NCBI GenBank assembly: GCA_022655215.1 | Contig: JALCUE010000002.1 | Location: forward strand, 124,001 to 188,000 | DNA: 64,000 nucleotides | From: Atopobiaceae bacterium | Lineage (GTDB): Bacteria > Actinomycetota > Coriobacteriia > Coriobacteriales > Atopobiaceae | Direction of reading: 5' to 3' | Part shown: positions 1,647 to 53,656 of the stretch, piece by piece | Layout of the letters: each line of letters begins with the position of its first letter | Numbering within the stretch: position 1 is the stretch's first letter | Position numbers and translations under genes: made by a program | The notes under the pieces: model-generated | The model's input: the letters and a program-made list of their open reading frames with translations, nothing else | What the model was told of the DNA's origin: nothing | Databases searched by the model: none

Positions 1647-2146
1647 ATCCGACCTTCCCCTTCGAATCAGTCTCGTTCGCCCCCATGGGTCTCCCTGGGG
1701 GCGGTGCCCGAGAATCCTAACTCATATCGACGGTCCGCATGAGCCCGTTTTCGGTCACATGAGGCTCTTAACACGGCGTTGTCTAAAGCTTCGGGCCCCT
1801 ATCGGCCACGTCTCGACTTTTCGCAGTTTTGAACAATTTTCCGAGAAATTCCGGTAATGGTTTTCGACATCGGGGGCACACCTGTTCGCCTTATTCAGAC
1901 AGGCTTGCCTTTACCTGCCTGTTCGCAGCCGAGCTCTCACGTGATACGCAAACTAGCTGGTAGATTTGATGACATATCCATCAGAGAGGGAAAGGGGCCC
2001 GCTCGTCGTTACCGGTGAGCGGGCCCCTCATGCGAACATCCGCATCTTGCCTGCACATTTCATATGCGACAGGAGACCTGCCGATTGTTGAAATAGGGAG
2101 ACCCTGATGTGGCTTCAATCGGACAGCAGATTGACGACGCGCTTCG
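1647..2146. other. 500-bp dnaB-rplI intergenic region
   Basis: No convincing gene is visible. The segment is AT-richer than its flanks near 1780-1870 and should contain the dnaB promoter. It carries TTTTCGACA at 1861-1869, the reverse complement of the TGTCGAAAA box also seen around dnaA. The rplI-operon terminator is annotated separately. Confidence 0.6.
1994..2027 (-). terminator. Rho-independent terminator of the rpsF-rplI operon
   Basis: GGGGCCCGCTC (1994-2004) and GAGCGGGCCCC (2017-2027) form a perfect 11-bp stem with a 12-nt loop. On the minus strand it is followed by TTTCCCTCTCT. It lies about 120 bp past the rplI stop codon, with no gene between. Confidence 0.8.
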
Positions 2147-2701
2147 TTACTCGGCGTTCTCCTCGGTCGTCTCGGCCTCGACCTCAGTGGAGGCCTCGGT
2201 CTCGACCTCAGTGTCAGCCTCGGTCGTCTCGGGCTCAGGCTCGGGCTCGGGGGCGACCACGGTGCCGACCTGAAGGGTCAGCTTGGCGTCGATGTCGCGG
2301 TAGAAGTTGACGACGACCTCATGGACGCCGGCGGTCTTGATGGCACGGTTGAGCTCGATGCGCTTGCGGTCGACGGTGACGTCGAGCTGCGAGGCGATGG
2401 CATCCGCGATCATCTGCGAGGTGACGGAGCCGAAGAGCTGGCCCTCCTCGCCGACCTTGGCGTCGATCTTGACGGACTTTCCGTCGAGGGCGGCCTTCAT
2501 GGCCTTGGCGTCGGAGACGCGCTTGTCCTCGCGCTTCTCGATGTTATGACGCCTCTCCTCGAGCTGCTTGATGTTACCCGGGGTGGCGGGAAGAGCGAGA
2601 CGCTTCGGGAACAGCATGTTCTCGGCGTATCCCTGAGCGACGTCCACGACGTCGCCCTCTCCACCCTTGCCCCTGAGCTCACCCAGAAGGATGACTTTCA
2701 T
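2147..2701 (-). CDS. rplI: 50S ribosomal protein L9 with an acidic C-terminal tail
   Basis: 184-residue L9, a 23S rRNA-binding protein. The signature 'MKVILLGELRGKGGEGDVVDVAQGYAEN...LFP' follows the start at 2701; an upstream in-frame ATG would add 27 unconserved residues and is rejected. The normal two-domain L9 fold ends near residue 149 ('LTLQVGTVV'). About 33 further residues rich in Glu, Thr and Pro follow, which are not part of the usual family. Last gene of the rpsF-ssb-rpsR-DUF2232-rplI cluster, followed by a strong terminator. Confidence 0.95.
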   Translation of the reverse strand: MKVILLGELRGKGGEGDVVDVAQGYAENMLFPKRLALPATPGNIKQLEERRHNIEKREDKRVSDAKAMKAALDGKSVKIDAKVGEEGQLFGSVTSQMIADAIASQLDVTVDRKRIELNRAIKTAGVHEVVVNFYRDIDAKLTLQVGTVVAPEPEPEPETTEADTEVETEASTEVEAETTEENAE

Positions 2702-2744
2702 GGACACTCCTTTGGTTGGTCGGCGAGAGATCCGTCGACTCCGA

Positions 2745-3767
2745 TTACTCTGCGGTCGTACCGCTCCCGGTCTTCGCGCCACGCGGAAGGTGGCGGAAGT
2801 TGGCCCAGAAGTCGACGAGACCCACTACGCTCATGACCATGAACGATAGTTCAAGGTCGATTGCCAGGAAGAGAACGAGGGTCCTGCCGAAGCAGCCTAC
2901 CCTCTTGCTTGCCAACCACCACACGACCACCGCAACACCCTGAAGGGCGAACAACGGCCTGACGTCGAGGATGAGGTTCACCCCGATCATCAGCAGCAGC
3001 TGGTTCCAACTCGTCGTCACGAACGAGACGGCGCAGACCACCAGCGCGACGATGAGCACCGCCACGCCCCACGTGGGGACGTCGAACGTCGCCAACGTGA
3101 AGGGGGTCCACTGCTTGCCCGAGACCCTGTTCGCGGCCAGCCTCGCCCCGAGGTGGGCGACGAGGACGGAGAACAAGGCAAGGGCGAAGTAGGCGAAGGG
3201 CCAGATCAGGTTCATGACTTCCTTGAGCACCGGAAGCTGTGCCTGGGTGACCGACCCTGCTGCCACGTATTGCTCGCAGATCGTGTCGATCGAGGACGCC
3301 ATGATCGCGACGACGTCCTGACCCGAGAGCATGGGCACGAACACGTCGACGACAAGATAGGCGACCGTGATCGCGGCGATGACGAGCGATTCGTTCGTGA
3401 CCGAGACCCTCTCGCGAGAGACGAGCCATGCGACCACGAGACCGGCGAGGCACTCGACGCACTGCTCCCCCATGGTGTCGAAGCCCGTGAAGGCCCCCAT
3501 GACGACCAAGGGGATGACACAAGCCGCAACCGCGATGGCCCAGCTCTTGAACGTCTTCCCTCTGACGAGCAGGACGACGCCGTAGGCCATCATCGCGGCT
3601 CCGATGAGAGACACGTAAGACCCCGCAATCACACCGAGCACGCACCAGATCGCGCCGCTGACGAGATCGAAGGAGCCAGAAGGCCCTCTCCTCTCGTCGA
3701 ACTTCACGACCGAGCGCTCGTCCGAGCCCGGCTGCGGATTCTCGTCCATGTTCCCGTCGTCACTCAC
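2745..3767 (-). CDS. Polytopic membrane protein, DUF2232 (YybS)-like
   Basis: About 340 residues with many hydrophobic segments (for example 'SGAIWCVLGVIAGSYVSLIG', 'WAIAVAACVIPLVVMGAF', 'LIWPFAYFALALFSVLVAHL', 'TWGVAVLIVALVVCAVSF'), hence an integral membrane protein. The assignment to the DUF2232/YybS family rests on architecture and on position between rpsR and rplI, where that family often sits; its role is unknown. The GTG at 3767 is preferred because AGGAGAG lies about 9 nt upstream; a longer reading frame overlaps rpsR. The hydrophilic N-terminus (about 25 residues) is acidic. Confidence 0.72.
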   Translation of the reverse strand: MSDDGNMDENPQPGSDERSVVKFDERRGPSGSFDLVSGAIWCVLGVIAGSYVSLIGAAMMAYGVVLLVRGKTFKSWAIAVAACVIPLVVMGAFTGFDTMGEQCVECLAGLVVAWLVSRERVSVTNESLVIAAITVAYLVVDVFVPMLSGQDVVAIMASSIDTICEQYVAAGSVTQAQLPVLKEVMNLIWPFAYFALALFSVLVAHLGARLAANRVSGKQWTPFTLATFDVPTWGVAVLIVALVVCAVSFVTTSWNQLLLMIGVNLILDVRPLFALQGVAVVVWWLASKRVGCFGRTLVLFLAIDLELSFMVMSVVGLVDFWANFRHLPRGAKTGSGTTAE

Positions 3768-14202: not shown

Positions 14203-16155
14203 TTAGATGTCAAGGAAACGCGCGTCATGGGCATGGTGCTGGATGAAGTCCTTGCGCTTCTCGACCTGCGTTCCCATGAGGTCGGAGACCGCCCTCTCGG
14301 CAGCAGCCGCGTCATCGAGGGTGACCTTGAGAAGGATGCGGTTCTTGGGCTCCATCGTGGTCTCCCAGAGCTGCTCGGGATCCATCTCGCCGAGTCCCTT
14401 GTAGCGCTGCACGCTGTACTTGTCGCCACGCGGGAGCTTCTCGACCTCCTGCTCCAACTCCTCGTCGGTGTAGATGTAGGCACCCTTCTTATGACCCTTG
14501 GGCTTGAGCTGGTACAGAGGGGGCTGCGCGATGTAGATATAGCCGGCCTCGATCATCGGCTTCATGTAGCGATAGAAGAAGGTGAGCAGGAGGATGCGGA
14601 TGTGCGCACCGTCGACGTCGGCATCGGTCATGATGATGACCTTGTGATAGCGGGCCTTGGCTAGGTCGAAGGAGTCTCCCACGGTGACGCCGGTGCCGAT
14701 GGCCGTGATGAGTGACTGGATGGTGTCCGAGGTGAGGGCACGGTGATCACCCACACGCTCGACGTTCAGGATCTTCCCTCGTAGGGGAAGGATGGCCTGT
14801 ATCGAGCGATCGCGAGCCATCTTGGCTGATCCACCTGCGGAATCACCCTCGACGATGAAGAGTTCGGTCGCCTCGGGCTCGCGCACCGAGCAGTCGGCGA
14901 GCTTGCCGGGCAGAGCGGCACTCTCGAGCAGACCCTTGCGCCTGGTGGCGGCGCGCGCCTTCTGGGCGGCGAGACGTCCCTTTGCGGCATTCGTGGCCTT
15001 GCCGATGATGGTACGGGCCTGTGAGGGATGTTCCTCGAGGTATTCGGAAAGACCCTCGGAGACGACCTTCTGGACGAGGCCCCTCATGAAGGAGCTTCCG
15101 AGCTTCGCCTTGGTCTGGCCCTCGAACTGTGGATCGCCGAGCTTGCAGGAGATGACGGCGCAGAGGCCCTCGCGGACGTCGTCACCGGTGAGGTTCGCAT
15201 CCTTCTCCTTGAGGATGTTCGCCTTCCTCGCATAGTCGTTGATGACCTTCGTGAGTGCGGCGCGGAATCCCTCGAGGTGCATACCTCCCTCGGGGGTGTA
15301 GATGTCGTTGGCGAAGCTCATGACGTTCTCGGAGAAGGTCGTGTTCCACTGGAGTGCGACCTCGACCTCACCCATCTTGGACACGTCATCTGTGTCGGAC
15401 GTGCCCTGGAGGTAAATCGGGCGCTTGAGCCCGTCGGCGATGTCCTTGCCCTCGTTCAGGAACTTCACAAAGTCGACGATGCCGCCCGAATAGCAGAACT
15501 CATCCACGCGCGGGGTGAGCTCGCGCTCGTCCGTGAGGATGATCTTGAGGTTCTTGTTGAGGAAGGCCGTCTCCTGGAGGCGGTCATGGAGGGTGTCGTA
15601 GCTGAAGTTCGTGGTCTCGAAGATGGTGTCATCAGGCCAGAACGTGGTGGTCGTCCCTGTCGACTTGGACGTGCCGACGACCTTCATGTCCTCGGTCTTC
15701 TTGCCGCGCGAGAACTCCATCTCGTAGACCTTACCGTCACGGGAGACCTGGACGACGAGCCTCTTGGAGAGCGCGTTGACGACGGACACACCGACGCCAT
15801 GGAGACCACCGGACACCTTATAGGCCTTGTTGTCGAACTTTCCTCCTGCATGGAGGATGGTCATGACGACCTCGAGCGTGGGGATCTTCTTGACGGGGTG
15901 CTTGTCGACGGGGATGCCTCGACCGTTGTCTATGACGGTGACCGAACCATCAGCATGGATGGTGACGATTATCTTCGTGCAATACCCCGCCAGAGCCTCA
16001 TCGACGGAGTTGTCGACTACCTCATACACGAGGTGATGCAGACCCGAGGCACTGGTGGAGCCGATATACATGCCGGGACGCTTGCGTACTGGATCGAGTC
16101 CCTCGAGGACGGTGATCTCTGAACCGTCGTAGGAGCTCTCCTTCTTGTTTGCCAC
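14203..16155 (-). CDS. gyrB: DNA gyrase subunit B
   Basis: 650 residues, normal for the short GyrB type. GHKL ATPase: 'EVVDNSVDEALAGYC', 'DNGRGIPVD', 'GLHGVGVSVVNALS'. TOPRIM: 'EGDSAGGSAKMARDR' and 'DADVDGAHIRILLLTF'. Supplies the ATPase and Mg-binding parts of gyrase, which introduces negative supercoils. The start is the GTG at 16155 with GGAGAGGA upstream. Downstream of dciA after a 142-bp gap with a large inverted repeat, so expression may be partly separate from the dnaA-dnaN-recF cluster. Confidence 0.96.
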   Translation of the reverse strand: MANKKESSYDGSEITVLEGLDPVRKRPGMYIGSTSASGLHHLVYEVVDNSVDEALAGYCTKIIVTIHADGSVTVIDNGRGIPVDKHPVKKIPTLEVVMTILHAGGKFDNKAYKVSGGLHGVGVSVVNALSKRLVVQVSRDGKVYEMEFSRGKKTEDMKVVGTSKSTGTTTTFWPDDTIFETTNFSYDTLHDRLQETAFLNKNLKIILTDERELTPRVDEFCYSGGIVDFVKFLNEGKDIADGLKRPIYLQGTSDTDDVSKMGEVEVALQWNTTFSENVMSFANDIYTPEGGMHLEGFRAALTKVINDYARKANILKEKDANLTGDDVREGLCAVISCKLGDPQFEGQTKAKLGSSFMRGLVQKVVSEGLSEYLEEHPSQARTIIGKATNAAKGRLAAQKARAATRRKGLLESAALPGKLADCSVREPEATELFIVEGDSAGGSAKMARDRSIQAILPLRGKILNVERVGDHRALTSDTIQSLITAIGTGVTVGDSFDLAKARYHKVIIMTDADVDGAHIRILLLTFFYRYMKPMIEAGYIYIAQPPLYQLKPKGHKKGAYIYTDEELEQEVEKLPRGDKYSVQRYKGLGEMDPEQLWETTMEPKNRILLKVTLDDAAAAERAVSDLMGTQVEKRKDFIQHHAHDARFLDI

Positions 16156-16240
16156 TCGTCAGTCCTCTCCCTAAGAGGGTTTCAACAGTCGATATGATAC
16201 CTCAACGTGTGTGTTGACCCCGCGCCATGGCGAGAATGGA

Positions 16241-16290
16241 CTCAGAATCGTCCTAATTACCATCTGAGAGGCTTCCAGAGCGATTCTGAG
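16241..16290. repeat. 10-bp perfect inverted repeat between dciA and gyrB
   Basis: CTCAGAATCG (16241-16250) and CGATTCTGAG (16281-16290) are perfect complements separated by 30 nt. On the minus strand the structure begins just after the dciA stop and lies in the gyrB leader. It may be a terminator with a long loop, an operator for a dimeric regulator, or an RNA switch. Confidence 0.6.
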
Positions 16291-16297
16291 GGGAGGT

Positions 16298-16804
16298 TTA
16301 GTCTTCCTTCGTCCCTTTTAGCTTTTCCCAACGGAGAGACGAACTCATGGCTTGCATGGCCTTATCCCTGAGAGCGTCGGGAAGCTTCCCACACATCTCC
16401 GTCACCCGTCGTTGTTCCGAGACATCAAGCGGAGGGAGATCGGCGACCTCGTGCTTGGGAGGGATCTCCTTCTTGACCGTCCTCTTCCTTCGGCTCAGCT
16501 TGAACTGGACATCGACGACCGGAAGACCCTCATGACAGAGTCTCTCGACATAGAGCTGCCTGTCACAGGTGAAATCCTGGATGAGTGAGGAGGAATCGAT
16601 ATAGACGATGAGGGTTGGGAGTCCCGTGTGGGACCCACCCTCCTTGAGAAAGACACCACATGTGTGTCGCCGCTCGAGATCCCCATTCGCACGTGACCAC
16701 GCAAGACGAGCCTTCTGCTGTATGCCGAGCTCAGGGGTGGTAACGGAAGAGAGACCCGTCTGGAGGAGAGAGGAAAGGGAAACCCCGTCACGTTCATCGC
16801 CCAT
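16298..16804 (-). CDS. dciA: DciA-like (DUF721) helicase-operator protein
   Basis: 168 residues. A compact KH-like region ('GIQQKARLAWSRANGDLERRHTCGVFLKEGG', 'LIVYIDSSSLIQDFTCDRQLYVERL') and a position immediately after recF fit the DUF721/DciA family, the ancestral loader or operator of DnaB helicase. No DnaC/DnaI loader is visible in the window. The C-terminal half is charged and helical. Its start overlaps recF by 11 bp, indicating translational coupling. Confidence 0.75.
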   Translation of the reverse strand: MGDERDGVSLSSLLQTGLSSVTTPELGIQQKARLAWSRANGDLERRHTCGVFLKEGGSHTGLPTLIVYIDSSSLIQDFTCDRQLYVERLCHEGLPVVDVQFKLSRRKRTVKKEIPPKHEVADLPPLDVSEQRRVTEMCGKLPDALRDKAMQAMSSSLRWEKLKGTKED

Positions 16805-17885
16805 CGAAGCTCACCACCTTGGCCTCGTCGAGTACGGCTGCGTTGAAATAACCGAGGTTGGTCGTTGTGATTACAGTCTGAACTTCATCACCGACGAAGT
16901 CGAGGAAGGAATTCCTCCTTCCCTCGTCGAGCTCACTCATCACGTCGTCAAGAAGGAGGAGGGGCTGACGTCCCGTTATCTCTCGAGCGAGTTCTACCTC
17001 GGCAAGCTTGAGTGAGAGCACACAGGTCCTCTGTTGTCCCTGTGACCCATATGTCCTCGCATCCATCCCAGCCACCTCGAACGTGATGTCATCACGATGG
17101 GGACCAAGAAGGGTCATTCCCCTCCTGATGTCATCCGCGCGATTCTCCCTGAGCCTGGTCACGAACAGATCGTGGATGTCATCCCTGTCCATCGAGAGGA
17201 CCTCGTCACCGAGGGAAGGATGGTATTCGCAGACCAGGCCCTCCTTCCCCACCATTCTCGAGTAGATCCGAGTGATGGTTGGTGCCAATCGCCTGAGGAG
17301 ATTCATCCGGTGGTAGAGAAGGGTGGCGCCACCAAGGGCGAGGGACTCATCCCAGGCGTCGAGAAGGGCCACATCAACCCTCTCTTCCTTGAGGAGTCTG
17401 TTCCTCTGTTCGACGGATCTTCGATAGGTCGAGCAGACCTTCTCATATCCCTTGTTCACCTGACTGCCGAACCCGTCGATCTCATCCCTCCTGAGACCTG
17501 CCCTCCCTTTGATGAGAGCGAGGTCATCAGGGTTGAAGAGGATGGAGATGAGGGTGCCGAGAAGGGATGATCTCCTACAGGTCTTCCCGTTGAGGGAGAA
17601 GGTCCTGCCCTCGGGGGTGACATGGAGACCCACATCAAGCACCCTGCCATCACCCTCGATGAGGATGGTGGCATTGGCCGATTCACATCCCTCCATGACG
17701 AGTTCGAAGGAGGTTGGATGTCTGAAACTCTCACCTGCCGTCAGGAGCTGAAGCGCCTCGATGGTGTTCGTCTTACCGGCGGCATTCGGACCCACGAGGA
17801 TGGTCACACCATCATCAAACGATATCTCCCGCGAGTTGATGTTCCTGTATCTCTCGAGATCGATCCTCTTGACGAGAAGGGACAC
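16794..17885 (-). CDS. recF: DNA replication and repair protein RecF
   Basis: 363 residues. SMC-like ATPase: Walker A 'GPNAAGKTNTIEAL' (about 33-46), signature 'GSQGQQRTCVLSLKLAEV', Walker B 'LLLLDDVMSELD'. Acts with RecO/RecR to load RecA at gaps. Only 3 nt separate it from the dnaN stop, and dciA overlaps its end. Confidence 0.95.
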   Translation of the reverse strand: MSLLVKRIDLERYRNINSREISFDDGVTILVGPNAAGKTNTIEALQLLTAGESFRHPTSFELVMEGCESANATILIEGDGRVLDVGLHVTPEGRTFSLNGKTCRRSSLLGTLISILFNPDDLALIKGRAGLRRDEIDGFGSQVNKGYEKVCSTYRRSVEQRNRLLKEERVDVALLDAWDESLALGGATLLYHRMNLLRRLAPTITRIYSRMVGKEGLVCEYHPSLGDEVLSMDRDDIHDLFVTRLRENRADDIRRGMTLLGPHRDDITFEVAGMDARTYGSQGQQRTCVLSLKLAEVELAREITGRQPLLLLDDVMSELDEGRRNSFLDFVGDEVQTVITTTNLGYFNAAVLDEAKVVSFDGR

Positions 17886-17888
17886 CGT

Positions 17889-18992
17889 CTACATCCGCAC
17901 AGGCATGAGGAGATAGAGATAGTTGATCTTCGAGTAGGACTTGAAGATGCCGGGTTGCATCGGCCCCTGTAGCTCCAGAGACACTTCCTTCTCCTCAGAG
18001 AGGGCATTGACGCAATCAAAGACGTAATGATAGTTGAGGGAGATCGATATGGACGGTCCTTCCACCTCGACACCGATGGCCTCCTTGGCATCGCCTTGAT
18101 CGGTCGATGTGGCGGAGAGGACCATCTGGGATTGATCGGAATCGATGTCGAAGCGCACGGAGGGATTGGTCTGCGCGATGACGGAAACCCTCTTGAGGGC
18201 ACCAGAGAGCTCTTGGAGGTCGATCTTCGACGAGGTCTCACATGACGATGGGAGGAGTTGCTTGTAGTTGGGGAAATTACCCTCTATCTTGCGTGAGATA
18301 TAAGTGGTGTTCCCGAAGACGAAGACGACCTGACTGTCAGTAGATCCGATGAGAATCGTAGATGAGTCCGAGGGAAGGGTGAGCACGTCGTGGAAGACGC
18401 TACCTGGGATGATCATCTTGAAGGCGTTTTCTGTCGAGGAGGTCTCGACGTTGGTATCACAGACCACGAGTCGATAGGAATCCGTGGCGACGAGACGGAT
18501 CGTGTTCTCCTCGACGTTCATGAGTATTCCCGAGAGTATGGGACGTGAAGTATCCTTCGACACCACCTTGTAGACCCTCTCCACCATCGAGGAGAGGATG
18601 TCGCTCGGCAACTCTATCGAACTCTCGAGTGCGAAGGAGGGGAATTCCGGGAAGTCAGCCGGATCGAGGGCATTGAGGTGGAAGGAGCTCCTCCCAGAGG
18701 TGATGGAGACGACCTTGTCCTCGCTCTCGAAGCTCACCGCCGCATCGGGAAGGGTCTTCACTATGTTTGAGAGGACCTTACCTGATATTACGGTCGATCC
18801 CTCTTCCTCGACATTGGCGGCGATCCTATGACGAATCGAGATGGTGAGGTTGGTCGATTGGAATTCGATGGTGCCATTCTCCGCATGGATATAGATTCCG
18901 GAGAGGATGGGGAGCGTAGAGTTCGACGCCATTCCCTTCATCACTATCGACAGGGCCTTCGAAAGAGCTGACTGGCTTACCGAGAATCTCAT
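17889..18992 (-). CDS. dnaN: DNA polymerase III beta sliding clamp
   Basis: 367 residues, standard clamp length. 'MRFSVSQSALSKALSIVMKG' and 'LPILSGIYIHAENGTIEFQSTNLTISI' open the first clamp domain; the ending 'YLYLLMPVRM' is the classic C-terminal 'LMPMR(L/M)' motif. Separated from dnaA by a 226-bp AT-rich gap that carries the oriC-like elements. Codon use is rich in AGG/AGA Arg, unlike genes beyond gyrB. Confidence 0.97.
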   Translation of the reverse strand: MRFSVSQSALSKALSIVMKGMASNSTLPILSGIYIHAENGTIEFQSTNLTISIRHRIAANVEEEGSTVISGKVLSNIVKTLPDAAVSFESEDKVVSITSGRSSFHLNALDPADFPEFPSFALESSIELPSDILSSMVERVYKVVSKDTSRPILSGILMNVEENTIRLVATDSYRLVVCDTNVETSSTENAFKMIIPGSVFHDVLTLPSDSSTILIGSTDSQVVFVFGNTTYISRKIEGNFPNYKQLLPSSCETSSKIDLQELSGALKRVSVIAQTNPSVRFDIDSDQSQMVLSATSTDQGDAKEAIGVEVEGPSISISLNYHYVFDCVNALSEEKEVSLELQGPMQPGIFKSYSKINYLYLLMPVRM

Positions 18993-19218
18993 TTCTAATA
19001 CCCTCTTCTTAATAATAAAGGCCTAGTAATACTAATAGGAGCTGTAGAAAAGACGGAAAGTGAAATACTCGCAGCTACTACCCTATCCTCATCGATCCGA
19101 TCCTTGTTGAAAAGAAAAACTCGAGTGAGAAACATTGTCTGTCGAAAACCATCCTCTACAATTCTCCCCCATCTTTCGACAGATGTCTCTAGGTTCTCTT
19201 CTGAGATATGAACAAACA
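18993..19218. other. Candidate oriC: dnaA-dnaN intergenic region
   Basis: 226 bp, clearly AT-richer than its surroundings. It holds a trinucleotide run TAG-TAA-TAC-TAA-TAG at 19024-19038, like the DnaA-trio described in Bacillus. Four nucleotides away is TGTAGAAAA (19043-19051), then TGTTGAAAA (19105-19113), TGTCGAAAA (19140-19148) and an inverted TGTCGAAAG (19173-19181). These differ from the TGTGGATAA DnaA box at two or more positions but recur near dnaA. The trio orientation (3'-GAT units running away from the boxes) matches the Bacillus arrangement. Also contains the dnaN promoter by position. No gene is apparent. Confidence 0.6.
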
Positions 19219-20688
19219 TCATTCCATCTCGGATAACTCTTCCTTGAGTCGCTCGATTCGATCGAAGAAGAGATGGTTCTCATGCATCTCCTGGTCGACC
19301 CAACTCACGGAGTGTTTGATGGTGGCATGACTTCTCCCACCAAACTTCTTTCCTATCTCGGCGAGTGTGTCGTCAGTCAGGGTTCTCGTGAGCCAGATTG
19401 CTATGTGTCTTGGCTCCATTATCTCTTTGTTTCGCTTGCTTCCTATCAGGTCGTTATGTGAGATGGAGAAGAACTCCTCCACCTTCTGTTGTATCTCTTC
19501 GACCGTCACCATTCGCTGTTTCAAGGACCACCGCTGCTTTGCGAGACCCTTCACCATCGACTGGTCGAAGTCGGAGCCATTCCTCTCACACTTCGTGGCC
19601 ATATAGAGACAGGATTGGCAGAATGCCTTGATCAGGCGGATGTTGGTCCCGGATACCTCTGCCATGTATTTGAGACAATCCTCCGAGATCTCGCCCTCAT
19701 AGTCCTTGACGCCCTCCTCCTTCATCCTCTTGTAGAAGGAGGAGATGAGAGTGTATTTGAGCTCATAGCTTGGCACCTGGATGCTCACGCTGAAACCCCC
19801 GTCGAGTCTGCTCGTGACCCTTTCCTCCATTCCAAGTTCAAGAGGTGGGACGTCCGCGGCGAGGACGATCTGCTTACCGTTGTTGATGAGGTGGTTGAAG
19901 GTGTCGAAGAAGAAGGTGATGGTCCTGGCGGCATTCCTCATGTTCTGGATGTCATCGATTATGAGGATGTCTATGTTTTGGTAGTTCTGCTCGAGGGACT
20001 CCTTCATGTCCTTGTTCGGGTTGCTCATGGCGTTCGTGAAGTCGGAGATGAAGTCGTTTGCCGTCTTATAGACGCAAACCCTCGAAGGATCGTTCGTGAT
20101 GACATAGTTTTGTATGGCCTTCAGAAGGTGAGTCTTCCCTAGGCCACTCTTTCCGTAGATGAAGAGAGGATTGAAGTTCTTATCACCATCAGCCACACCT
20201 TTGGCAGCTTGGAGAGCTATCTGATTTTCCTCACCTTCGACGAACGTCTCGAAGGTGAGCTTCGAGTCATTCTCGGTGACATTCGAGACGAGGGGATTTC
20301 TCTTGTTTTCCTTGGGTTTGTTTGACTTCTTGGCGGGGGAGGTCTTCCTCAACGAAGGCATCTGATTGTCCGACCTCATGTTATTCAGATCGTCTTCCGA
20401 GATGGTCGAGACCATCTCCCTCTTTGGGGAGGAAGTGTCCCTCTTGACCTCTATTCTCACCTTCATTGGTGTAAAAGCTGCCTGTGTGGCGAGATCGTTT
20501 AGAAGGGGAATCTGCTTCTCGAGGGTTGCCTTGACGAATTTGGTCTTCGTGATGACACACAAGGTGTCCCCATCAATACCATCGGCACTGCAACTACGCA
20601 GCATGGCCGCGGTCTGTGGTTGCATGTCAGATTCCTCCACGAGGGAGAGGATGTCATCCCAGAGGAAAGTGGAGTCGGAGTCCGTCAT
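19219..20688 (-). CDS. dnaA: Chromosomal replication initiator DnaA
   Basis: 489 residues. Domain I about 1-85, then a Lys/Ser-rich linker (domain II). AAA+ domain III has Walker A 'GKSGLGKTHLLKA', Walker B 'ILIIDDIQNM' and sensor regions. Domain IV ends with the DnaA signature 'GKKFGGRSHATIKHSV' (normally GR.H.T..H). Domain IV also has 'EPRHIAIWLTRTLTDDTLAEIGKKFGG', where the common R-Q is I-W. The box-contacting loop may therefore be slightly altered, which fits the non-standard boxes nearby. Confidence 0.96.
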   Translation of the reverse strand: MTDSDSTFLWDDILSLVEESDMQPQTAAMLRSCSADGIDGDTLCVITKTKFVKATLEKQIPLLNDLATQAAFTPMKVRIEVKRDTSSPKREMVSTISEDDLNNMRSDNQMPSLRKTSPAKKSNKPKENKRNPLVSNVTENDSKLTFETFVEGEENQIALQAAKGVADGDKNFNPLFIYGKSGLGKTHLLKAIQNYVITNDPSRVCVYKTANDFISDFTNAMSNPNKDMKESLEQNYQNIDILIIDDIQNMRNAARTITFFFDTFNHLINNGKQIVLAADVPPLELGMEERVTSRLDGGFSVSIQVPSYELKYTLISSFYKRMKEEGVKDYEGEISEDCLKYMAEVSGTNIRLIKAFCQSCLYMATKCERNGSDFDQSMVKGLAKQRWSLKQRMVTVEEIQQKVEEFFSISHNDLIGSKRNKEIMEPRHIAIWLTRTLTDDTLAEIGKKFGGRSHATIKHSVSWVDQEMHENHLFFDRIERLKEELSEME

Positions 20689-20719
20689 CTAGTCCTTCTA
20701 TGTCTCGTCAGTCACAAAA

Positions 20720-20737
20720 TGTTGAAAACTCATTATA
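20720..20737 (-). promoter_or_regulatory. dnaA promoter -10 with overlapping TGTTGAAAA box
   Basis: On the minus strand TATAAT (20737-20732) lies 44 bp upstream of the dnaA ATG; transcription would start near 20725. The box TGTTGAAAA (20720-20728, plus strand) covers that start point, the expected place for DnaA autorepression. No strong -35 is visible. Confidence 0.55.
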
Positions 20738-20768
20738 TGAGAACGAGAGAACCTGACTGGTGGAATCC

Positions 20769-21716
20769 TCAATTGATTGGTGTGAGGTAGGACCTTCCGA
20801 GTTGCGTGGGATATTTCTTCTGACCGACCTTCTTGAGGATTCCCAGCTCCTCGAGATGTGACGTCACCTTTGACCAAGTAGGTTGGGACAGACCATATTC
20901 CCTCACGAGCTCGGATGGGCCGACGTCCTCATGGGTGGAGAGATAGGTCATCACCATGGACTCTCGCCTATTGAGAACTGGTCTGGCCGTCTGTGGTTGA
21001 TATTGGGGGCTCGCGATTTGAGGTGGCATCTGCTGATAGACAGGATAAGCCCCCGGTACGACCCATGGTTGGGGTTGATATTGCTGCTGATATGAGGTGG
21101 GGGGTTGAGAAGGGATTTGGGGAGATGCCATAGGAATCTCCTCTCCCTCCTCTGTTTCCTTTGCTTCCATCGAGATGGTGACTATCGTCCCCTTCGAGAT
21201 GTTGTCCTCGATGGTGAGAGTCCCTCCCTTGTCGTTCATATAGTTCTGTGCGTATGGGAGACCTGATCCGACACCTCTGATGTAGTGCTTCATCTCGTCT
21301 GACGCTGAGGTGGTACCGAACTCGAGCGCCCGCTCCTTCTCCTGGATCCCAGGGCCCTGGTCGGAGAATCGGATGGTGTCTCCCCCGTCGAGGATGCTCA
21401 CGGTCGGTTCGATGAAATAGGCATGAATATAGTTCTCGACGACCTCACGTATGACCATGAAGGGAATATGGCCACCCTGCTCATGTGAGAGGCGAGTGAC
21501 AGTGGAGGTTATTTCCTCGAGGTATGAGCGAACATCCTCGGGATCCACGACCACGACGCGTGGGGCGGCCGATTGGTCGTCATAGACGGCGATTCGAGCG
21601 GGATATCTGACGGTGAGTGTCTCTTCCTCACCCTTCACCTCGACATCGGGTGAGTCGGCATCGTGTCCGTCGACGAACGGATAGAAGGTCTTGGCCACCA
21701 TGCTCCCTTTCGACAT
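20769..21716 (-). CDS. GHKL ATPase fused to a winged-helix domain, next to dnaA
   Basis: 315 residues, cytoplasmic. Residues about 80-185 form a GHKL (anti-sigma-kinase/histidine-kinase type) ATP site: N-box 'REVVENYIHAYF' (90-101), G1 'DQGPGI' (119-124), G2 'RGVGSGLPYA' (147-156) and 'KGTIV' (175-179). There is no phosphoacceptor His domain and no membrane segment. A Gln/Pro-rich linker (about 195-245) leads to a winged helix (about 248-312, 'ESMVMTYLSTHEDVGPSELVREYGLSQPTWSKVTSHLEELGIL'). It lies between dnaA and rpmH, downstream of its own promoter. An ATP-responsive regulator of origin or dnaA activity is conceivable, but function is not known to me. The ATG at 21716 has GGGAG upstream. 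Confidence 0.8.
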   Translation of the reverse strand: MSKGSMVAKTFYPFVDGHDADSPDVEVKGEEETLTVRYPARIAVYDDQSAAPRVVVVDPEDVRSYLEEITSTVTRLSHEQGGHIPFMVIREVVENYIHAYFIEPTVSILDGGDTIRFSDQGPGIQEKERALEFGTTSASDEMKHYIRGVGSGLPYAQNYMNDKGGTLTIEDNISKGTIVTISMEAKETEEGEEIPMASPQIPSQPPTSYQQQYQPQPWVVPGAYPVYQQMPPQIASPQYQPQTARPVLNRRESMVMTYLSTHEDVGPSELVREYGLSQPTWSKVTSHLEELGILKKVGQKKYPTQLGRSYLTPIN

Positions 21717-21812
21717 CTTTTGCTCCCATGTCGAAAACTTTCCAAAGAATTCCGAACAAAGAGAAAGTTTTAGACAGAGGTTGATTGCTTGTTGATAAAC
21801 CTGTTAGCAGTG

Positions 21813-21840
21813 ATTATAGGGCAGTGGATGTCATATGACA
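21813..21840 (-). promoter_or_regulatory. Promoter and palindromic operator of the GHKL-winged-helix gene
   Basis: On the minus strand TATAAT (21818-21813) is preceded after 16 bp by TGTCAT (21840-21835). The -35 is half of a perfect 12-bp palindrome, TGTCATATGACA (21829-21840), a plausible binding site for a dimeric winged-helix regulator, perhaps the gene's own product. Confidence 0.5.
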
Positions 21841-21949
21841 CATCCGGATGATGTAACTAATTTCGAAAGGTTGCCAGGGGATTCGAATGATTCCGAACAT
21901 TCATGGATATGTGGGAATGGTCGCGTCGGCGGATCGCTCATCTTAGAAA

Positions 21950-21979
21950 TTGACAACGTACCAGCAAGACCCCTACAAT
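21950..21979 (+). promoter_or_regulatory. rpmH promoter
   Basis: TTGACA (21950-21955), an 18-bp spacer and TACAAT (21974-21979), with transcription predicted near 21986, 46 nt before the rpmH start. Near-consensus housekeeping promoter. Confidence 0.8.
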
Positions 21980-22031
21980 CTTAGGGCTTTTGCTGCACTT
22001 GCAGTATTCGTTGTTCCCAGGAGGATTTCTT

Positions 22032-22166
22032 ATGAAGCGTACGTATCAGCCGAACAAGAGGAAGCGTGCTAAGAGTCACGGCTTCCGTGCCCGTATGGCC
22101 ACCAAGGGTGGTCGTGACGTTCTTTCCCGTCGTCGTAACAAGGGTCGCAAGCAGCTCACAGTCTAG
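22032..22166 (+). CDS. rpmH: 50S ribosomal protein L34
   Basis: 44 residues. It reads [12 protein letters not shown], then '[20 protein letters not shown]' and a basic end '[10 protein letters not shown]', the complete L34 sequence. AGGAGG lies 6 nt before the ATG. First gene of rpmH-rnpA-yidD-yidC-jag on the plus strand. Confidence 0.97.
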
Positions 22167-22174
22167 GAAGCATC

Positions 22175-22495
22175 ATGAAGACCATCAAATCCAAGAGGGA
22201 ATTTGAGACGGTCTTCTCCACCGGGAGAAAGTCCGCAGGTAGGTTCTCTCGGGTGATAGTCTGCGGAAACACCGAAGGCGGCCCGGGAAAGGTCGCCTTC
22301 GTCGCTGCAAAGAGGCTTGGAAACGCCGTCTATAGGAATCGCTGCAAGAGGGTTCTGAGGGTAGCCGCTCGCGAGAGCGGTCTGCCTATTGACGGCAAGG
22401 ACGTCATCATCCTCGCGAACGGTCGCACCCATGGTGCGTCGCCCGCGGAGGTGGCTGATGACCTCGTCTGTGTCATCGAGAAGGCGACGAGGTAG
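22175..22495 (+). CDS. rnpA: Ribonuclease P protein component
   Basis: 106 residues. '[22 protein letters not shown]' and the RNR-type signature '[23 protein letters not shown]' identify the RNase P protein, which with the RNA subunit matures tRNA 5' ends. Starts 8 nt after rpmH, overlapping the usual coupled arrangement. Confidence 0.95.
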
Positions 22496-22508
22496 TAAAG
22501 GACGGGCT

Positions 22509-22727
22509 GTGGAGATGGGATCAAGGGCACTTCTTGCCATGATCCGGTTCTACCAGAGGAGGATCTCTCCCCTGCTCCCAGCATGTTGCATCTACTACCC
22601 GACGTGTTCCCAATATGCCGTCGAGGCCATTCAGAAGCATGGTGCGTTACGAGGTGGGTGGCTTGCTTTCCGGAGGGTTCTCCGCTGCAACCCATTCCAT
22701 AAGGGCGGATATGACCCTGTCCCATAA
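22509..22727 (+). CDS. yidD: Membrane protein insertion efficiency factor YidD
   Basis: About 72 residues. '[67 protein letters not shown]' region shows every YidD mark: paired Cys, Y-P-T-C-S-Y and R-C-N-P-x-x-x-G-G-x-D-P-V-P. The GTG at 22509 has AAAGGA 6 nt upstream; the ATG at 22515 is the alternative. Acts with YidC at the membrane. Confidence 0.93.
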
Positions 22728-22750
22728 GGGCAGGCAGGTGCGGAGGAACT

Positions 22751-23509
22751 ATGTGGGATTGGTTTATTAATTTCCTGACGGACATCCTTGCCGGATTGGC
22801 AGGTTTCGTCGGTGACTGGGGCCTTGCAATCATCCTGCTCACCTTCATCATCCGTCTCCTGCTCACTCCCCTTACCATGAAGTCGACCAAGTCTTCGGCG
22901 AAGATGCAGGCGCTTCAGCCGAGGATGATGGAGATCCAAGAGCGTTATGCAGACGATCCGACGCGCCAGAGTGAGGAACTCCGCAAGTTCTACTCGGAGA
23001 ACAAGTTCAATCCCCTCGGCGGCTGCCTGCCGATGTTCCTGCAGATGCCCGTCTTCTTCGCCCTCTTCACGGTCCTCCAGAAGGTTCCCGCAGAGGCTCA
23101 CTTCTATGGCATCCTCGACTCCCTGAGCCAGTCCGTCTCCGGCGCCATCTCCGCCAACGGATGGCAGGGTGCCATCGTCTACATCCTCCTCGACGTCCTC
23201 TTCGGCGTCCTGACCCTCATCCCCATGCTGCTCAACACGCAGAACAGTGCCCCGGAGCAGGCAAGCCAGACCAAGATCATGGGCGTGGTCATGGCCGCGA
23301 TGATGATGTGGTTCGGTTGGAGCGTGCCCGTCGGTGTCGTCCTGTACTACGACACCTCGGCCGCTTGGGGTGTCATCCAGCAGGTCTTCATCACACAGCG
23401 CGTCATGGAGAGCATCAAGGCCCAGGAGGCCGAGAGGCTCAAGAATCAGCCCGTTCAGGTTGATGTCGTCAGGAAAGAGCGCAAGCAGCGCCCCCACAAG
23501 AAGGATTAG
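22751..23509 (+). CDS. yidC: Membrane protein insertase YidC/Oxa1
   Basis: 252 residues, the short Gram-positive YidC type without the large periplasmic domain. 'DWGLAIILLTFIIRLLLTPLTMKSTKSSAKMQALQPRMMEIQERYADDP' contains TM1 and the conserved Arg (the groove Arg in 'IIRLLLTPL'), followed by 'NPLGGCLPMFLQMPVFFALFTVL' and two further TM regions. No lipobox; the N-terminus 'MWDWFINFLTDILAGLAGFV' is an extra hydrophobic segment. The C-terminal tail is basic. Confidence 0.95.
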   Translation: MWDWFINFLTDILAGLAGFVGDWGLAIILLTFIIRLLLTPLTMKSTKSSAKMQALQPRMMEIQERYADDPTRQSEELRKFYSENKFNPLGGCLPMFLQMPVFFALFTVLQKVPAEAHFYGILDSLSQSVSGAISANGWQGAIVYILLDVLFGVLTLIPMLLNTQNSAPEQASQTKIMGVVMAAMMMWFGWSVPVGVVLYYDTSAAWGVIQQVFITQRVMESIKAQEAERLKNQPVQVDVVRKERKQRPHKKD

Positions 23510-23559
23510 TTAGATAGCTGATTATCATCACGGGTTCCCGTGCCGCGTTGGAGGTTGCC

Positions 23560-24159
23560 ATGGAAAATGATGAGCTAGATACCACGGAAGCAGAGGTCAC
23601 CACCGACGTGACTGTCGAAGACGCGCCTATGGACGAGGCCGACTTCCAGTCCATCAGGGAGCATTTCGAGGCTGGTACAGACCTCTCCGATGAGGAGGTT
23701 GACACTATCGCTGACAGTGCTGTCGCGATCCTTCGTTCCCTCCTCGGCTGCTTTGGCGAGTCCCAGTCCGGTGTTGATGAATATGAGGGAGACGAAGGCG
23801 AGCTCATCCTAGACGTCAATGGTGGAGATCTCGCCATCCTCATCGGCAGACATGGACGTACCCTGGATGCCCTCCAGCAGATAGTCTCTTCGCTTCTCAG
23901 CAACAAAATCGGCTTCCACTATCCCGTCGTGGTCGACATCGAGGGATACAAGAGCAGAAGGAAGCAGAAGGTCCAGAGCATCGCCCTTTCCGCTGCATCG
24001 CGCTCCAAGAAGCAAGGCGAGGCAGTCAAGCTTGCTCCGATGAACGCCTATGAGCGCCGCCTTGTTCATATCGCGCTCCGTGATGACGCCTCTGTGAGCA
24101 CTCATTCCGAAGGCGAGGACCCCGATCGCTATGTGGTCATCACCCCGGTACATGAGTGA
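23560..24159 (+). CDS. jag: KH-R3H RNA-binding protein Jag/KhpB-like
   Basis: 199 residues from the ATG at 23560 (GGAGG upstream). The N-terminal 75 residues are acidic, not the usual Jag-N sequence. KH domain: 'DVNGGDLAILIGRHGRTLDALQQIVSSLLSN' (G-R-H-G in place of G-K-x-G). The R3H-like end 'LAPMNAYERRLVHIALRDDASVSTHSEGEDPDRYVVITP' follows. Family members bind RNA and influence cell division and wall synthesis, usually encoded right after yidC, as here. Followed by a strong terminator. Confidence 0.92.
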   Translation: MENDELDTTEAEVTTDVTVEDAPMDEADFQSIREHFEAGTDLSDEEVDTIADSAVAILRSLLGCFGESQSGVDEYEGDEGELILDVNGGDLAILIGRHGRTLDALQQIVSSLLSNKIGFHYPVVVDIEGYKSRRKQKVQSIALSAASRSKKQGEAVKLAPMNAYERRLVHIALRDDASVSTHSEGEDPDRYVVITPVHE

Positions 24160-24184
24160 GGCTCAGTGAAATAGCGTGACCTTC

Positions 24185-24214
24185 AAGGGGAGCACCTAGG
24201 TGCTCCCCTTTTGT
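24185..24214 (+). terminator. Rho-independent terminator after jag
   Basis: A 26-bp perfect palindrome (24185-24210; arms AAGGGGAGCACCT / AGGTGCTCCCCTT) followed by TTTGTGTG. It ends the rpmH-jag operon 26 bp past the stop. Confidence 0.88.
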
Positions 24215-24258
24215 GTGACAATTCTTCTTGTTACGTGGAATTCTGTCAAAGGGATTAG

Positions 24259-24984
24259 ATGATGAACATAGATGCTGCAGACGGTTTACTCCAAGAGAGA
24301 TTGACCGAGTACGGCATAAGGAGTTCTGAGGAACAGAGAAGGATGCTCTTGCAGCACCTCGACCTTGTTCTCAAGAAGAACGAGGTCTTGAACCTCACGA
24401 GGATCACTGAGCCAAACAAGGCAATAGATCTTCATATCCTCGATTCGCTTCTCATCTATCCAAGATTCTCAGAAACGAGCGGGACGTTCATTGACATTGG
24501 AACCGGCGCCGGATATCCAGGTATACCTCTCGCGATCATGAGTGGTCGCAACGGCGTCCTCATGGATTCCGTTTCCAAGAAGATCACGGCGTGTGAGGAG
24601 TTCATTGATGCCCTAGGTCTTCACAAGAGGCTTGAATGTACTAATGAAAGGGCCGAGGCATATGCACTCACACACAAGAAGGCATTCGGTGCGGTGGTAG
24701 CCAGAGCAGTCGCACCTCTCGGCATCTTGATTGAATACGCCTCTCCCCTACTCTCTGATCATGGAGCACTGATCGTCACCAAGGGAAGGCTGTCTGACGA
24801 GGAATGCTCACAAGGAAACAAGACGGCTGACATCTGTGGCATGGAGATTGTTTCACGTGAAACAATTGAGTTGCCATCAGATGGGGGACACAGAGAGATA
24901 CTTGAGTATAGGAAGACCAAAGTGCCAAAGGTTGATCTCCCCAGACCAATTGGGGAGGCTAAGAAACACCCCTTGGCCCATTAG
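24259..24984 (+). CDS. rsmG: 16S rRNA (guanine527-N7)-methyltransferase
   Basis: 241 residues. SAM-binding motif 'FIDIGTGAGYPGIPLAIM', preceded by 'NEVLNLTRITEPNKAIDLHILDSLL', the GidB/RsmG signature. Methylates G527 of 16S rRNA; loss gives low-level streptomycin resistance. The C-terminal coding sequence contains a perfect parS site (24849-24864), so the last 40 residues partly serve a DNA role ('VSRETIE'). Starts a new plus-strand group with parA and parB. Confidence 0.94.
   Translation: MMNIDAADGLLQERLTEYGIRSSEEQRRMLLQHLDLVLKKNEVLNLTRITEPNKAIDLHILDSLLIYPRFSETSGTFIDIGTGAGYPGIPLAIMSGRNGVLMDSVSKKITACEEFIDALGLHKRLECTNERAEAYALTHKKAFGAVVARAVAPLGILIEYASPLLSDHGALIVTKGRLSDEECSQGNKTADICGMEIVSRETIELPSDGGHREILEYRKTKVPKVDLPRPIGEAKKHPLAH
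24849..24864. promoter_or_regulatory. parS site, perfect, inside rsmG
   Basis: TGTTTCACGTGAAACA, identical to the canonical 16-bp parS palindrome. It lies within the rsmG reading frame about 210 bp before parA. ParB loads here to form the origin-proximal partition complex. Confidence 0.95.
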
Positions 24985-24996
24985 AGAGACAGAGAA

Positions 24997-25012
24997 TGTT
25001 CCACGTGAAACA
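24997..25012. promoter_or_regulatory. parS site, one mismatch
   Basis: TGTTCCACGTGAAACA, one change from the perfect palindrome, in the 92-bp gap between rsmG and parA and 148 bp from the first site. Could also repress parAB when bound by ParB. Confidence 0.9.
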
Positions 25013-25076
25013 AATGAAGTGATGTGGCAGAATACATAGCATCCAATCCATGTAACGCAAATCAATTGGAGTAGAC

Positions 25077-25877
25077 GTGGATTACATGAATGTGAAGCGT
25101 GCAAAGCCAAATAGCTGTACGCGTGTGTTGGCGATTATCAATCAAAAAGGCGGGGTTGGGAAATCAACTACCGCGATTAATCTATCAGCAGCGCTGTCAG
25201 AGGCTGGCCGGAAGGTATTGGTAGTCGATTTCGACCCACAGGGGAACACCACAAGTGGATATGGGATTGAAAAGGATGGGCTGAAGAATGACATCTACGA
25301 TGCCCTTCTGAAGGATGTCCCGATGTCAGATCTTATCCATGATACCTGTGAAAAGCGCGCATTCGTCGTTCCGGCGACGATACAGCTCGCAGGTGCAGAA
25401 ATCGAGCTTGTCTCAGCGATGGCAAGGGAGAACAAGCTGAAGGAGCTCATCGATTCTGTCAAAGATGAGTTCGACTACGTTCTAATCGACTGTCCGCCAT
25501 CGCTTGGTCTATTGACTATCAACGCACTGGTCGCTTCGACAGACCTTCTGATTCCAATCCAATGTGAGTACTACGCGCTTGAAGGTGTGACGAAGCTGTT
25601 GGAATCAATGAAGATGGTCAAGAGCCATCTGAATCCTGAACTTGAGATATTCGGTGTTGTCATGACGATGTATGACGGAAGGACAACGCTATCAAACGAC
25701 GTTGTCGCCGAGGTGAGGAACTACTTTGGAGACAAGGTCTTCAAGACGGTCATCCCTCGTAGCGTGAAGATGTCCGAGGCACCGAGCCACGGGCTGCCGA
25801 TAACGATGTATGCACATGCGAACAAGGGCTCCATTGCCTATACGAAGCTTGCCAAAGAGGTGATCAAGCGTGGCTAA
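25077..25877 (+). CDS. parA: Chromosome partitioning ATPase ParA/Soj
   Basis: 266 residues. Deviant Walker A 'INQKGGVGKSTTAINL', A' 'VLIDCPPSLG', Walker B-type 'LVVDFDPQGNTTSG'. DNA-dependent ATPase that moves ParB-parS complexes. The GTG at 25077 has GGAG 6 nt upstream; the first 12 residues are an unconserved leader. Overlaps parB by 8 bp. Confidence 0.95.
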   Translation: MDYMNVKRAKPNSCTRVLAIINQKGGVGKSTTAINLSAALSEAGRKVLVVDFDPQGNTTSGYGIEKDGLKNDIYDALLKDVPMSDLIHDTCEKRAFVVPATIQLAGAEIELVSAMARENKLKELIDSVKDEFDYVLIDCPPSLGLLTINALVASTDLLIPIQCEYYALEGVTKLLESMKMVKSHLNPELEIFGVVMTMYDGRTTLSNDVVAEVRNYFGDKVFKTVIPRSVKMSEAPSHGLPITMYAHANKGSIAYTKLAKEVIKRG

Positions 25878-26739
25878 GAAGACTGGTCTTGGAAAGGGTC
25901 TCGAGTCACTGATGGGCGAGGCCAACGCTGAAGTCGGTAATAACGAACCGAAATCCGTCGTACAGATTTCGAAGGTAAAGCCAAATCCTGATCAGCCAAG
26001 GAAGAACTTCGACGAGACGGCATTGGACGAGCTTGCGGATTCGATCAAGCAGAATGGTGTACTCCAGCCGATCCTTGTCAGGAAGCGCGGACAATACTTC
26101 GAGATCGTTGCTGGTGAGCGGCGATATCAAGCGAGCAAGCGTGCCGGTCTCAAAGAGATTCCCGTCATCGTCAAGGACATAGACGACGAGAAGGTCTTCC
26201 AGCTTGCGCTGATCGAGAACCTCCAGCGCTCGGACCTCGACCCGATCGAGGAGGCTCGTGGATACAGGCAGCTCATCACCAAGAACGATATGACCCAGGA
26301 GGAGCTTGCGGGCGTCCTCTCGAAGTCGCGCTCAGCTATCGCCAATACGCTGCGTCTTCTTGACCTGCCACAAGAGGTCCAGGACATGATGGCCGCAGGG
26401 AAGCTGACGGCGGGCCATGCCCGGGCCATCCTCGCCGTGTCGTCGGAAGAGGGAAGGGTTCGTCTCGCACATAAGGTGGTTGATGAGAACCTGACCGTAA
26501 GGCAGACAGAAAACCTCGCACCACTGTTCTCTGGCATTGATCAGCCCAAGACTCCTCGCACCGCCACGCCGCAAGTCTTCAAGCGGGCCGCCCGTCAGTT
26601 GAGACAGTCCCTTGACACCGTGGTGAAGGTCAAGCAAGTGAGGGGTAAGAACAAGATAGAGATCGAGTTCAAGGACGAAGATGATCTCGCTAGGATTATG
26701 CGCGCGATGTCGGGAGCCCAAGAGGGTATCGAAGAGTAA
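25870..26739 (+). CDS. parB: Chromosome partitioning protein ParB/Spo0J
   Basis: 289 residues. N-terminal CTPase domain: 'NPDQPRKNFDETALDELADSIKQNGVLQPI' and the CTP-binding 'EIVAGERRYQASKRAG'. Then 'ALIENLQRSDLDPIEEARGY' and the HTH 'MTQEELAGVLSKSRSAIANTLRLLDLP' that reads parS. The C-terminal dimer domain follows residue 240. Begins with GTG inside the end of parA, indicating coupling. Confidence 0.96.
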   Translation: MAKKTGLGKGLESLMGEANAEVGNNEPKSVVQISKVKPNPDQPRKNFDETALDELADSIKQNGVLQPILVRKRGQYFEIVAGERRYQASKRAGLKEIPVIVKDIDDEKVFQLALIENLQRSDLDPIEEARGYRQLITKNDMTQEELAGVLSKSRSAIANTLRLLDLPQEVQDMMAAGKLTAGHARAILAVSSEEGRVRLAHKVVDENLTVRQTENLAPLFSGIDQPKTPRTATPQVFKRAARQLRQSLDTVVKVKQVRGKNKIEIEFKDEDDLARIMRAMSGAQEGIEE

Positions 26740-52494: not shown

Positions 52495-52859
52495 GGTGCC
52501 GCCTCCCGCGTCGCGTCCGGTAACGTCGTGCCGAGTGTACCACCTGGGCTATAGGAAATGTGGGAAACGTTATGGGCGGACAAGCAAACTAGCAGCAAAG
52601 ATGTGAACAATCCAAACCGCATAATGTCGGTTATACTTGACATAATATATATTATCACGGATTCAAACCGCATATTCTGGTAGGTGCGGCGCATATCGGG
52701 CTTTCTACCTGCGACTATGCCACAAACACCGAATGTCGAAAACTCCGCGCCACATAATCCGTAACCTAGGCGCGCCCGTCCCGTTGATGGTACCACGGAA
52801 GAACGACCCGCCCTCAGTCGATAGAGGACGGGTCGCCGTTGGTTGTGCTTGTCCTTATG
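52495..52859. other. AT-rich control region with iteron-like repeats
   Basis: 365 bp without a gene. CAAACCGCATA occurs at 52613-52623 and 52664-52674 (51 bp apart, about five helical turns), flanking a 14-bp AT palindrome ATAATATATATTAT (52642-52655). It could be the element's replication origin or an operator/promoter for the RHH gene. Confidence 0.55.
52805..52834 (-). terminator. Terminator after the 245-residue gene
   Basis: GACCCGCCCTC (52805-52815) and GAGGACGGGTC (52824-52834) form an 11-bp stem with one mismatch, followed on the minus strand by GTTCTTCC. 25 bp past the stop codon. Confidence 0.7.
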
Positions 52860-53597: not shown

Positions 53598-53656
53598 GTT
53601 CGTACCTTCCTATCACGTGTCGGTTGTCCAGGCTCGGGAGACCTCTCCCGCGCCGC

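Follow-up and report, generated by a model that had tools for sequence, protein, structure and literature searches.

The window, which is the whole 64-kb stretch of DNA analysed here, belongs to a genome of 2.0 Mb in three contigs. Gene order and the relatives suggest a bacterium of the Coriobacteriales, probably of the Atopobiaceae. Its genes are listed below, part of the names being readings of the translations.

216-1646, minus strand: dnaB
2147-2782, minus strand: rplI, adjoining dnaB
between rplI and dnaN, minus strand: gyrA, gyrB, a DUF721-like gene and recF
17889-18992, minus strand: dnaN
19219-20688, minus strand: dnaA, 489 aa, with Pfam matches to Bac_DnaA (PF00308, 7.4e-47) and Bac_DnaA_C (PF08299, 4.5e-23)
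20769-21716, minus strand: HATPase_c gene, identified by a domain match
after the HATPase_c gene, plus strand: rpmH, rnpA, yidC, a jag-like gene, rsmG, parA and parB

The DnaA encoded here carries both the AAA+ domain and the domain IV (Bac_DnaA_C) of the initiator family, and the dnaA/dnaN/rpmH cluster coincides with a cluster of boxes, the arrangement by which an oriC is recognized. Around this cluster (about 16000-26000) the G+C content is 50-57%, compared to 60-67% across most of the remaining window. Between dnaA and rpmH, the HATPase_c gene encodes a 315-aa protein with an apparent C-terminal winged helix. A homologue is found upstream of dnaA in most sampled loci of the class and, in the window, boxes lie at the 5′ end of the gene. 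Since no Rfam match at the gathering threshold was obtained in 17800-22600, the idea of an RNA element in this region was rejected. Further along, a probable integrated element (52704-58139) carries a tyrosine integrase (56685-58139, minus), a DnaB_C-type ATPase (53657-54919, minus) and a small HTH-like protein; at its edge, a TGTCGAAAA box (52734) is found together with GCAGGTAGA (52704, minus).

The features of the dnaN-dnaA gap are the following, f1 designating the family to which the genome belongs.

18993-19218, no strand: dnaN-dnaA intergenic gap of 226 bp; candidate for the unwinding part of oriC
18993-19023, no strand: AT-rich stretch between dnaN and the trios, a putative DNA unwinding element by extrapolation from B. 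subtilis and C. difficile
19024-19038, plus strand: DnaA-trio run TAG-TAA-TAC-TAA-TAG (TAGTAATACTAATAG)
19039-19042, no strand: 4-nt spacer GAGC from the trios to the first box, at the same place as the 4-nt spacer of the trio-anchored fits
19043-19051, plus strand: trio-proximal DnaA box TGTAGAAAA, matching the f1 fit TGT[A/C/T]GAAA
19051-19059, plus strand: degenerate second tandem box AGACGGAAA, at the box 2 position of the f1 fit and weak in the own genome
19071-19077, plus strand: GCAGCTA, the window's version of a CAGGT/CAGCT element found 25-26 bp from the first box
19105-19113, plus strand: DnaA box TGTTGAAAA, 62 bp from the first box
19140-19148, plus strand: DnaA box TGTCGAAAA
19173-19181, minus strand: inverted near-match TGTCGAAAG

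The trio run, the 4-nt spacer, TGTAGAAAA, TGTTGAAAA, TGTCGAAAA and the inverted TGTCGAAAG had been placed in this 226-bp gap by the preliminary description, and each was recovered at its position. The gap itself measures about 200-300 bp in nearly all sampled f1 relatives. Its A+T content is 68% in 18993-19042 vs 57% in 19052-19218. The run comprises five trinucleotides (one of them TAC) 4 nt from a box, where the basal unwinding system (BUS) is recognized by at least three trios adjoining a DnaA box. Neither the trio pattern TARTARTANTARTAR nor the combination of trio, 4 nt and TGTNGAAAA occurs more than once in the 64 kb, and both were absent from all 100 shuffled sequences. Position 4 of the three forward boxes is A, T and C, respectively, so that none carries the canonical G (TGTGNATAA; TTATnCACA).

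Further boxes are found outside the gap, beyond dnaA and upstream of dnaB.

20720-20728, plus strand: box TGTTGAAAA just upstream of dnaA, proposed to serve autoregulation
21707-21715, minus strand: box TGTCGAAAG, at the 5′ end of or upstream of the HATPase gene
21729-21737, plus strand: box TGTCGAAAA, at the 5′ end of or upstream of the HATPase gene
21790-21798, plus strand: TGTTGATAA, upstream of the HATPase gene
1861-1869, minus strand: box TGTCGAAAA upstream of dnaB, between dnaB and rplI
1827-1835, minus strand: TGTTCAAAA, second box of the dnaB pair, 34 bp on from the first

Counting confirmed that the boxes are concentrated near dnaA, as expected from the preliminary description. The word TGTNGAAAA occurs 8 times in the window, compared to 0.38 expected and to a maximum of 2 in 100 shuffles, and 11 times in the genome vs 1 for the reversed pattern. 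Five of these 11 copies, all on the plus strand, fall within 2.7 kb around dnaA (19043-21737). The canonical TGTGGAWAA is not enriched in the same genome (5 copies vs 7 for the control) and has no copy at dnaA; the single one in the window lies at least 36 kb away. Over 61 f1 genomes, TGTHGAAAA was counted 1595 times vs 1408 for the reversed control, with 45 of the 61 genomes above control: the enrichment is therefore local, at few loci, and not genome-wide. One distinct cluster was observed at L179 (G057 C1:237272-237397), where five TGTHGAAAA words of alternating strand lie within 126 bp, in the neighbourhood of genes resembling phage terminase and portal.

To place the gap among its relatives, genomes were grouped as f1, f2 and f3 (the two latter being other families of the order, f3 the sister family) and 'other' (elsewhere in the class). 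DnaA was matched in 115 of 121 f1 genomes and in 179 of 197 class genomes. We read 96 f1 loci (of the 115 genomes with a dnaA match) and 40 outgroup loci, chosen among 137 matched non-f1 genomes, some from the head of the list and others picked by hand so as to spread families. Where a genome, or one nearly identical to it, was represented twice, the second copy (L003, L014, L119) was dropped from the position 4, residue, upstream and around-dnaA counts, and only L003 and L014 from the counting of 9-mers in f1 gaps. Gap counts were made without L154 (912-bp gap) and without the outgroup loci L136, L146 and L162 (no usable dnaN match); the f1 motif fit was run after leaving out one gap identical to another. 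The upstream counts cover 77 loci, those whose sequence reached far enough on that side.

Unbiased counting of 9-mers in 97 f1 gaps gave among the top words CTGTNGAAA (49 gaps, 0.9 when shuffled), TGTNGAAAA (52 gaps, 1.4 shuffled) and the trio word GTAGTAATA (34 gaps, 0.2 shuffled). In the outgroups, the top words were trio words and TGTTGANAA for f3, trio words and GTGGANAAC for f2, and TGTGGATNA for the others. We then used an expectation-maximisation fit seeded on the trio word alone, the box being left blank. For f1 it returned the trio, GGcc, TGTHGAAAa and GTNGAAAA, thus recovering TGT[A/C/T]GAAA beside the trio, in line with the comparison of relatives proposed in the preliminary description. 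The tandem pair of boxes at the trios is clear in this fit, and box 2 is degenerate in the window. The layout of trio, spacer and box is conserved across the class, which supports the earlier reading of the gap as an oriC. The groups also share a wider layout, in which a CAGGT-like element follows at 25-26 bp and another box at around +60; the +62 box of the window is that at 19105, and 62 bp is the commonest spacing between neighbours in f1 loci (17 pairs).

In four groups, the origin gap carries the CAGGT/CAGCT element at 25-26 bp from its first box, and TACCTGC/GCAGGTA words are present near the dnaB boxes (window 1956-1964). Considered as a dispersed motif, it was rejected for the own genome, where GCWGGTAGA is not enriched (71 vs 152 for the reversed control); the same word is enriched in G046 (170 vs 46).

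The position that separates f1 from the other groups is position 4 of the box. In the f1 fit, its base frequencies are A 0.32, C 0.35, T 0.31 and G 0.01. Counted gap by gap, the first box carries G at position 4 in 1 of 96 f1 gaps vs 24 of 36 outgroup gaps (Fisher 2e-16, kinship being ignored), the latter made up of 10/11 in the others, 11/14 in f2 and 3/11 in f3. Box 2 carries G in 10 of 96 f1 gaps. Around dnaA as a whole, G is found at 18 of 411 f1 sites vs 81 of 129 sites in outgroups with D433 (summed counts). Position 5 is G in 0.76 of the f1 fit, and position 4 tolerates any base other than G. The E. coli consensus TTATnCACA (in the available text of PMC5742627) is free at the neighbouring pair; the fixed and the free base pair have swapped roles in the f1 box compared to that of E. 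coli.

Could this be an ordinary oriC with low-affinity boxes of one mismatch, in a gap that has drifted while DnaA still prefers TGTGGATAA? Weak non-consensus boxes are common in origins (as described in PMC6727663, in the part available), and TGTGGAWA persists in 12 of 97 f1 gaps; 13 of the 97 have no TGTHGAWA at all. Drift, however, would not exclude one base: G is seen once in 96 first boxes, compared to a G frequency of 0.21 in the gaps, and positions 2, 3 and 6 stay nearly fixed while position 4 excludes G. The canonical box is moreover absent near dnaA in the own genome, and the same exclusion of G recurs upstream of dnaB, where the f3 sites are mostly canonical. We therefore regard drift as quite unlikely.

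Upstream of dnaB, boxes are present in 27 of 30 f1 genomes and absent from 3. Position 4 is never G in the 50 f1 sites (T 35, C 13, A 2), whereas the same pattern gives G at 32 of 43 sites in 25 f3 genomes: a conserved site upstream of dnaB has thus changed its base together with the protein. A head-to-tail pair of boxes 30-46 bp apart is found in 19 of 30 f1 and 13 of 25 f3 genomes; in f2, a box occurs upstream of dnaB in only 5 of 25 genomes. Binding of DnaA upstream of dnaB is known from M. tuberculosis, where it was reported both in vitro and from ChIP and was said to agree with Caulobacter (available text of PMC7738170), so that the f1 words are likely DnaA sites. The TGTHGAAAA words could alternatively be sites of another regulator, common to dnaA, dnaN and dnaB. 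Copies are present in front of the HATPase/winged-helix gene and of dnaB too, positions at which DnaA binding is a prediction, and this would suit such a regulator. But they take the place of the canonical DnaA boxes of sister families, with an unchanged distance to the trios and, upstream of dnaB, an unchanged arrangement, and we consider a second regulator extremely improbable.

GC skew, whose inflection the preliminary description had proposed as a check, was examined as a further indication of the origin. In the own genome and in G012, of the same genus, it is too weak to be informative and shows no clean switch at dnaA, and coding-strand bias is no better. This would also fit an origin lying elsewhere, the gap being only a regulatory region of dnaA and dnaN. 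Against this stand the trio and box architecture, conserved at the dnaA-dnaN gap across the class, and the skew of a complete relative (G071), which flips at dnaA and near 840 kb: between 5 and 800 kb, 11 of 12 samples are positive, and between 880 and 1430 kb all 8 are negative. An origin located elsewhere is very unlikely on these grounds, and the replication start site of the chromosome, as judged from such sequence features, very probably lies in the gap of the window.

We then turned to the part of DnaA expected to contact the boxes. Solved DnaA chains (8BTG, 1J1V, 3PVP, 2HCB, 1L8Q) were aligned. No gap is needed to align the domain IV of the window with those of E. coli (1J1V) and B. subtilis (8BTG), and GGRSHATIKHS takes the place of GGRDHTTV. 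The D-H-T triad (E. coli 433-435), conserved in most DnaAs and not treated here as a condition of membership, is replaced by S-H-A.

19324-19332, minus strand: codons S453-H454-A455, corresponding to E. coli D433-H434-T435 by ungapped alignment (coordinates counted by hand)

In addition, the window DnaA has A at the position of E. coli P423. The preliminary description had noted unusual residues in domain IV, which are indeed present; it had placed them upstream of the signature, and they lie within the signature helix (GGRSHATIKHS), with the A at P423 in addition.

These changes extend to the family. D433 is kept in none of the 95 readable f1 proteins, compared to 38 of 40 outgroup proteins, the two exceptions (both f3) having N. 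Residue 433 (E. coli numbering) is S in 62 f1 proteins, T in 28, K in 4 and V in 1; of the 95, 88 have A at 435, 81 have A at 423 and 68 have K at 438, and R432 and H434 are unchanged in all. The protein of G012 is frame-broken and was not counted at residue 433; THAT was read there separately. In this same-genus genome (L046 / L020, single contig), the dnaA frame appears broken near residue 420, which may reflect an assembly error or a real frameshift.

Base contacts have been assigned to DnaA positions 399, 423, 432-435 and 438-439 (PMC5043019, in the portion available). For the box written TGTGGATAA, the accessible text of PMC6727663 gives base-specific hydrogen bonds of E. coli DnaA at positions 2, 3, 4, 7, 8 and 9 and none at 5; the base shifted in f1, at position 4, is thus a contacted one. 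Within f3, G is found at 71 of 104 sites in D433 genomes vs 4 of 19 in N433 genomes (Fisher 0.0002, the sites being non-independent and kinship again ignored), and D433 genomes of this family already accept T at position 4 (22 of 46 sites). Five f1 loci that have S433 but T435 carry G at 1 of 10 sites, which points weakly to residue 433 rather than 435. Since the box change of f1 may be a single evolutionary event, residues 433, 435, 423 and 438 are not cleanly separable.

Taken together, we consider it highly probable that the gap is the unwinding part of a chromosomal origin, operating by a B. subtilis-like system whose box has changed with DnaA across one family. Protein and sites have shifted together in f1, within a conserved layout. 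The shift of the box announced in the preliminary description as TGTNGAWAA stands, G being replaced by A, C or T in a family lacking D433, and also at dnaB; its wording does not: with G almost missing from position 4, and not just tolerated there, TGTHGAAAA is the better notation.

The mechanism can be pictured from this layout and from strand opening via trios in B. subtilis (PMC6669920, PMC10721633, as far as their available text goes). DnaA-ATP would bind the box at 19043 and its weak neighbours through domain IV, with help from the boxes at 19105 and 19140. It would then extend along the TAG/TAA trio strand toward dnaN, as in B. subtilis, opening 18993-19038 for helicase loading. Through the boxes upstream of dnaA and dnaB, DnaA probably regulates its own production as well as helicase synthesis. 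In f1, the sites recognized would be TGT[A/C/T]GAAAA in place of TGTGGATAA. The recognition helix has gone from D433 to S/T; A now stands at both 435 and 423, and K is frequent at 438. We infer that this change in the helix, presumably through residue 433, has removed the preference for G at position 4.

A stronger version is that f1 DnaA is orthogonal: it would reject TGTGGATAA, its regulon (origin, dnaA, dnaB) would have been rewritten together, and residue 433 would set position 4 in a graded way (D: G/T; N: T/C; S/T: A/C/T). We hold this as a tentative and rather doubtful possibility. If true, replicons needing canonical boxes could not use the initiator of an f1 host.

To our knowledge, nearly all bacteria have DnaA and its box, and origin prediction relies on the box as an almost invariant word. 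Because of the family-wide switch, origin finders based on TTATCCACA will score f1 poorly. A switch at one contacted base throughout a family, with loss of a highly conserved residue and a parallel switch at dnaB, makes a compact and testable case of co-change: a natural experiment in which an essential initiator and the many sites it reads appear to have changed in concert. The specificity change to which it points is simple and could be examined in laboratory strains.

Among open-licence papers, we found no description of the f1 box variant or of the loss of D433, nor any account of DnaA boxes in this bacterial group. The kind of phenomenon is already known, since divergent boxes and domain IV (Thermotoga, Helicobacter) and DnaA binding upstream of dnaB have been reported. 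The following comparisons are bounded by the available text of the papers cited. Among the closest systems is the B. subtilis BUS (incC; DnaA-boxes 6/7 and trios; PMC6669920, PMC8287927, PMC10721633, which include a survey across bacteria); it likewise has boxes, a short spacer, 3′-GAT trios and an AT-rich region in the dnaA-dnaN gap, and tandem boxes as in the f1 consensus. It differs in that base 4 of the f1 box is A, C or T and not G, that f1 DnaA lacks the recognition-helix aspartate and that box 2 of the window is degenerate. Clostridioides difficile oriC2 (PMC7561715) shares a trio run of the same TAG/TAA type and an unwinding region between dnaA and dnaN; there, in contrast, contact residues including D433 are conserved and boxes were sought as TTWTNCACA. 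For dnaB, M. tuberculosis (PMC7738170) also has a DnaA site upstream of the helicase gene, established by pull-down and ChIP, whereas the f1 site is predicted from a conserved box arrangement and carries the shifted base. A clade-wide change of the DnaA box, linked by the authors to recognition-helix residues, has been described in epsilonproteobacteria (PMC5043019), but their fixed T is at top-strand position 5, while in f1 it is top-strand position 6 that has changed, and the aspartate itself is gone. Thermotoga maritima (PMC10316083, PMC6669920), finally, combines a divergent domain IV with a divergent box and has kept TAG trios; its box is longer and entirely different, whereas that of f1 is a single-position change of the ordinary 9-mer.
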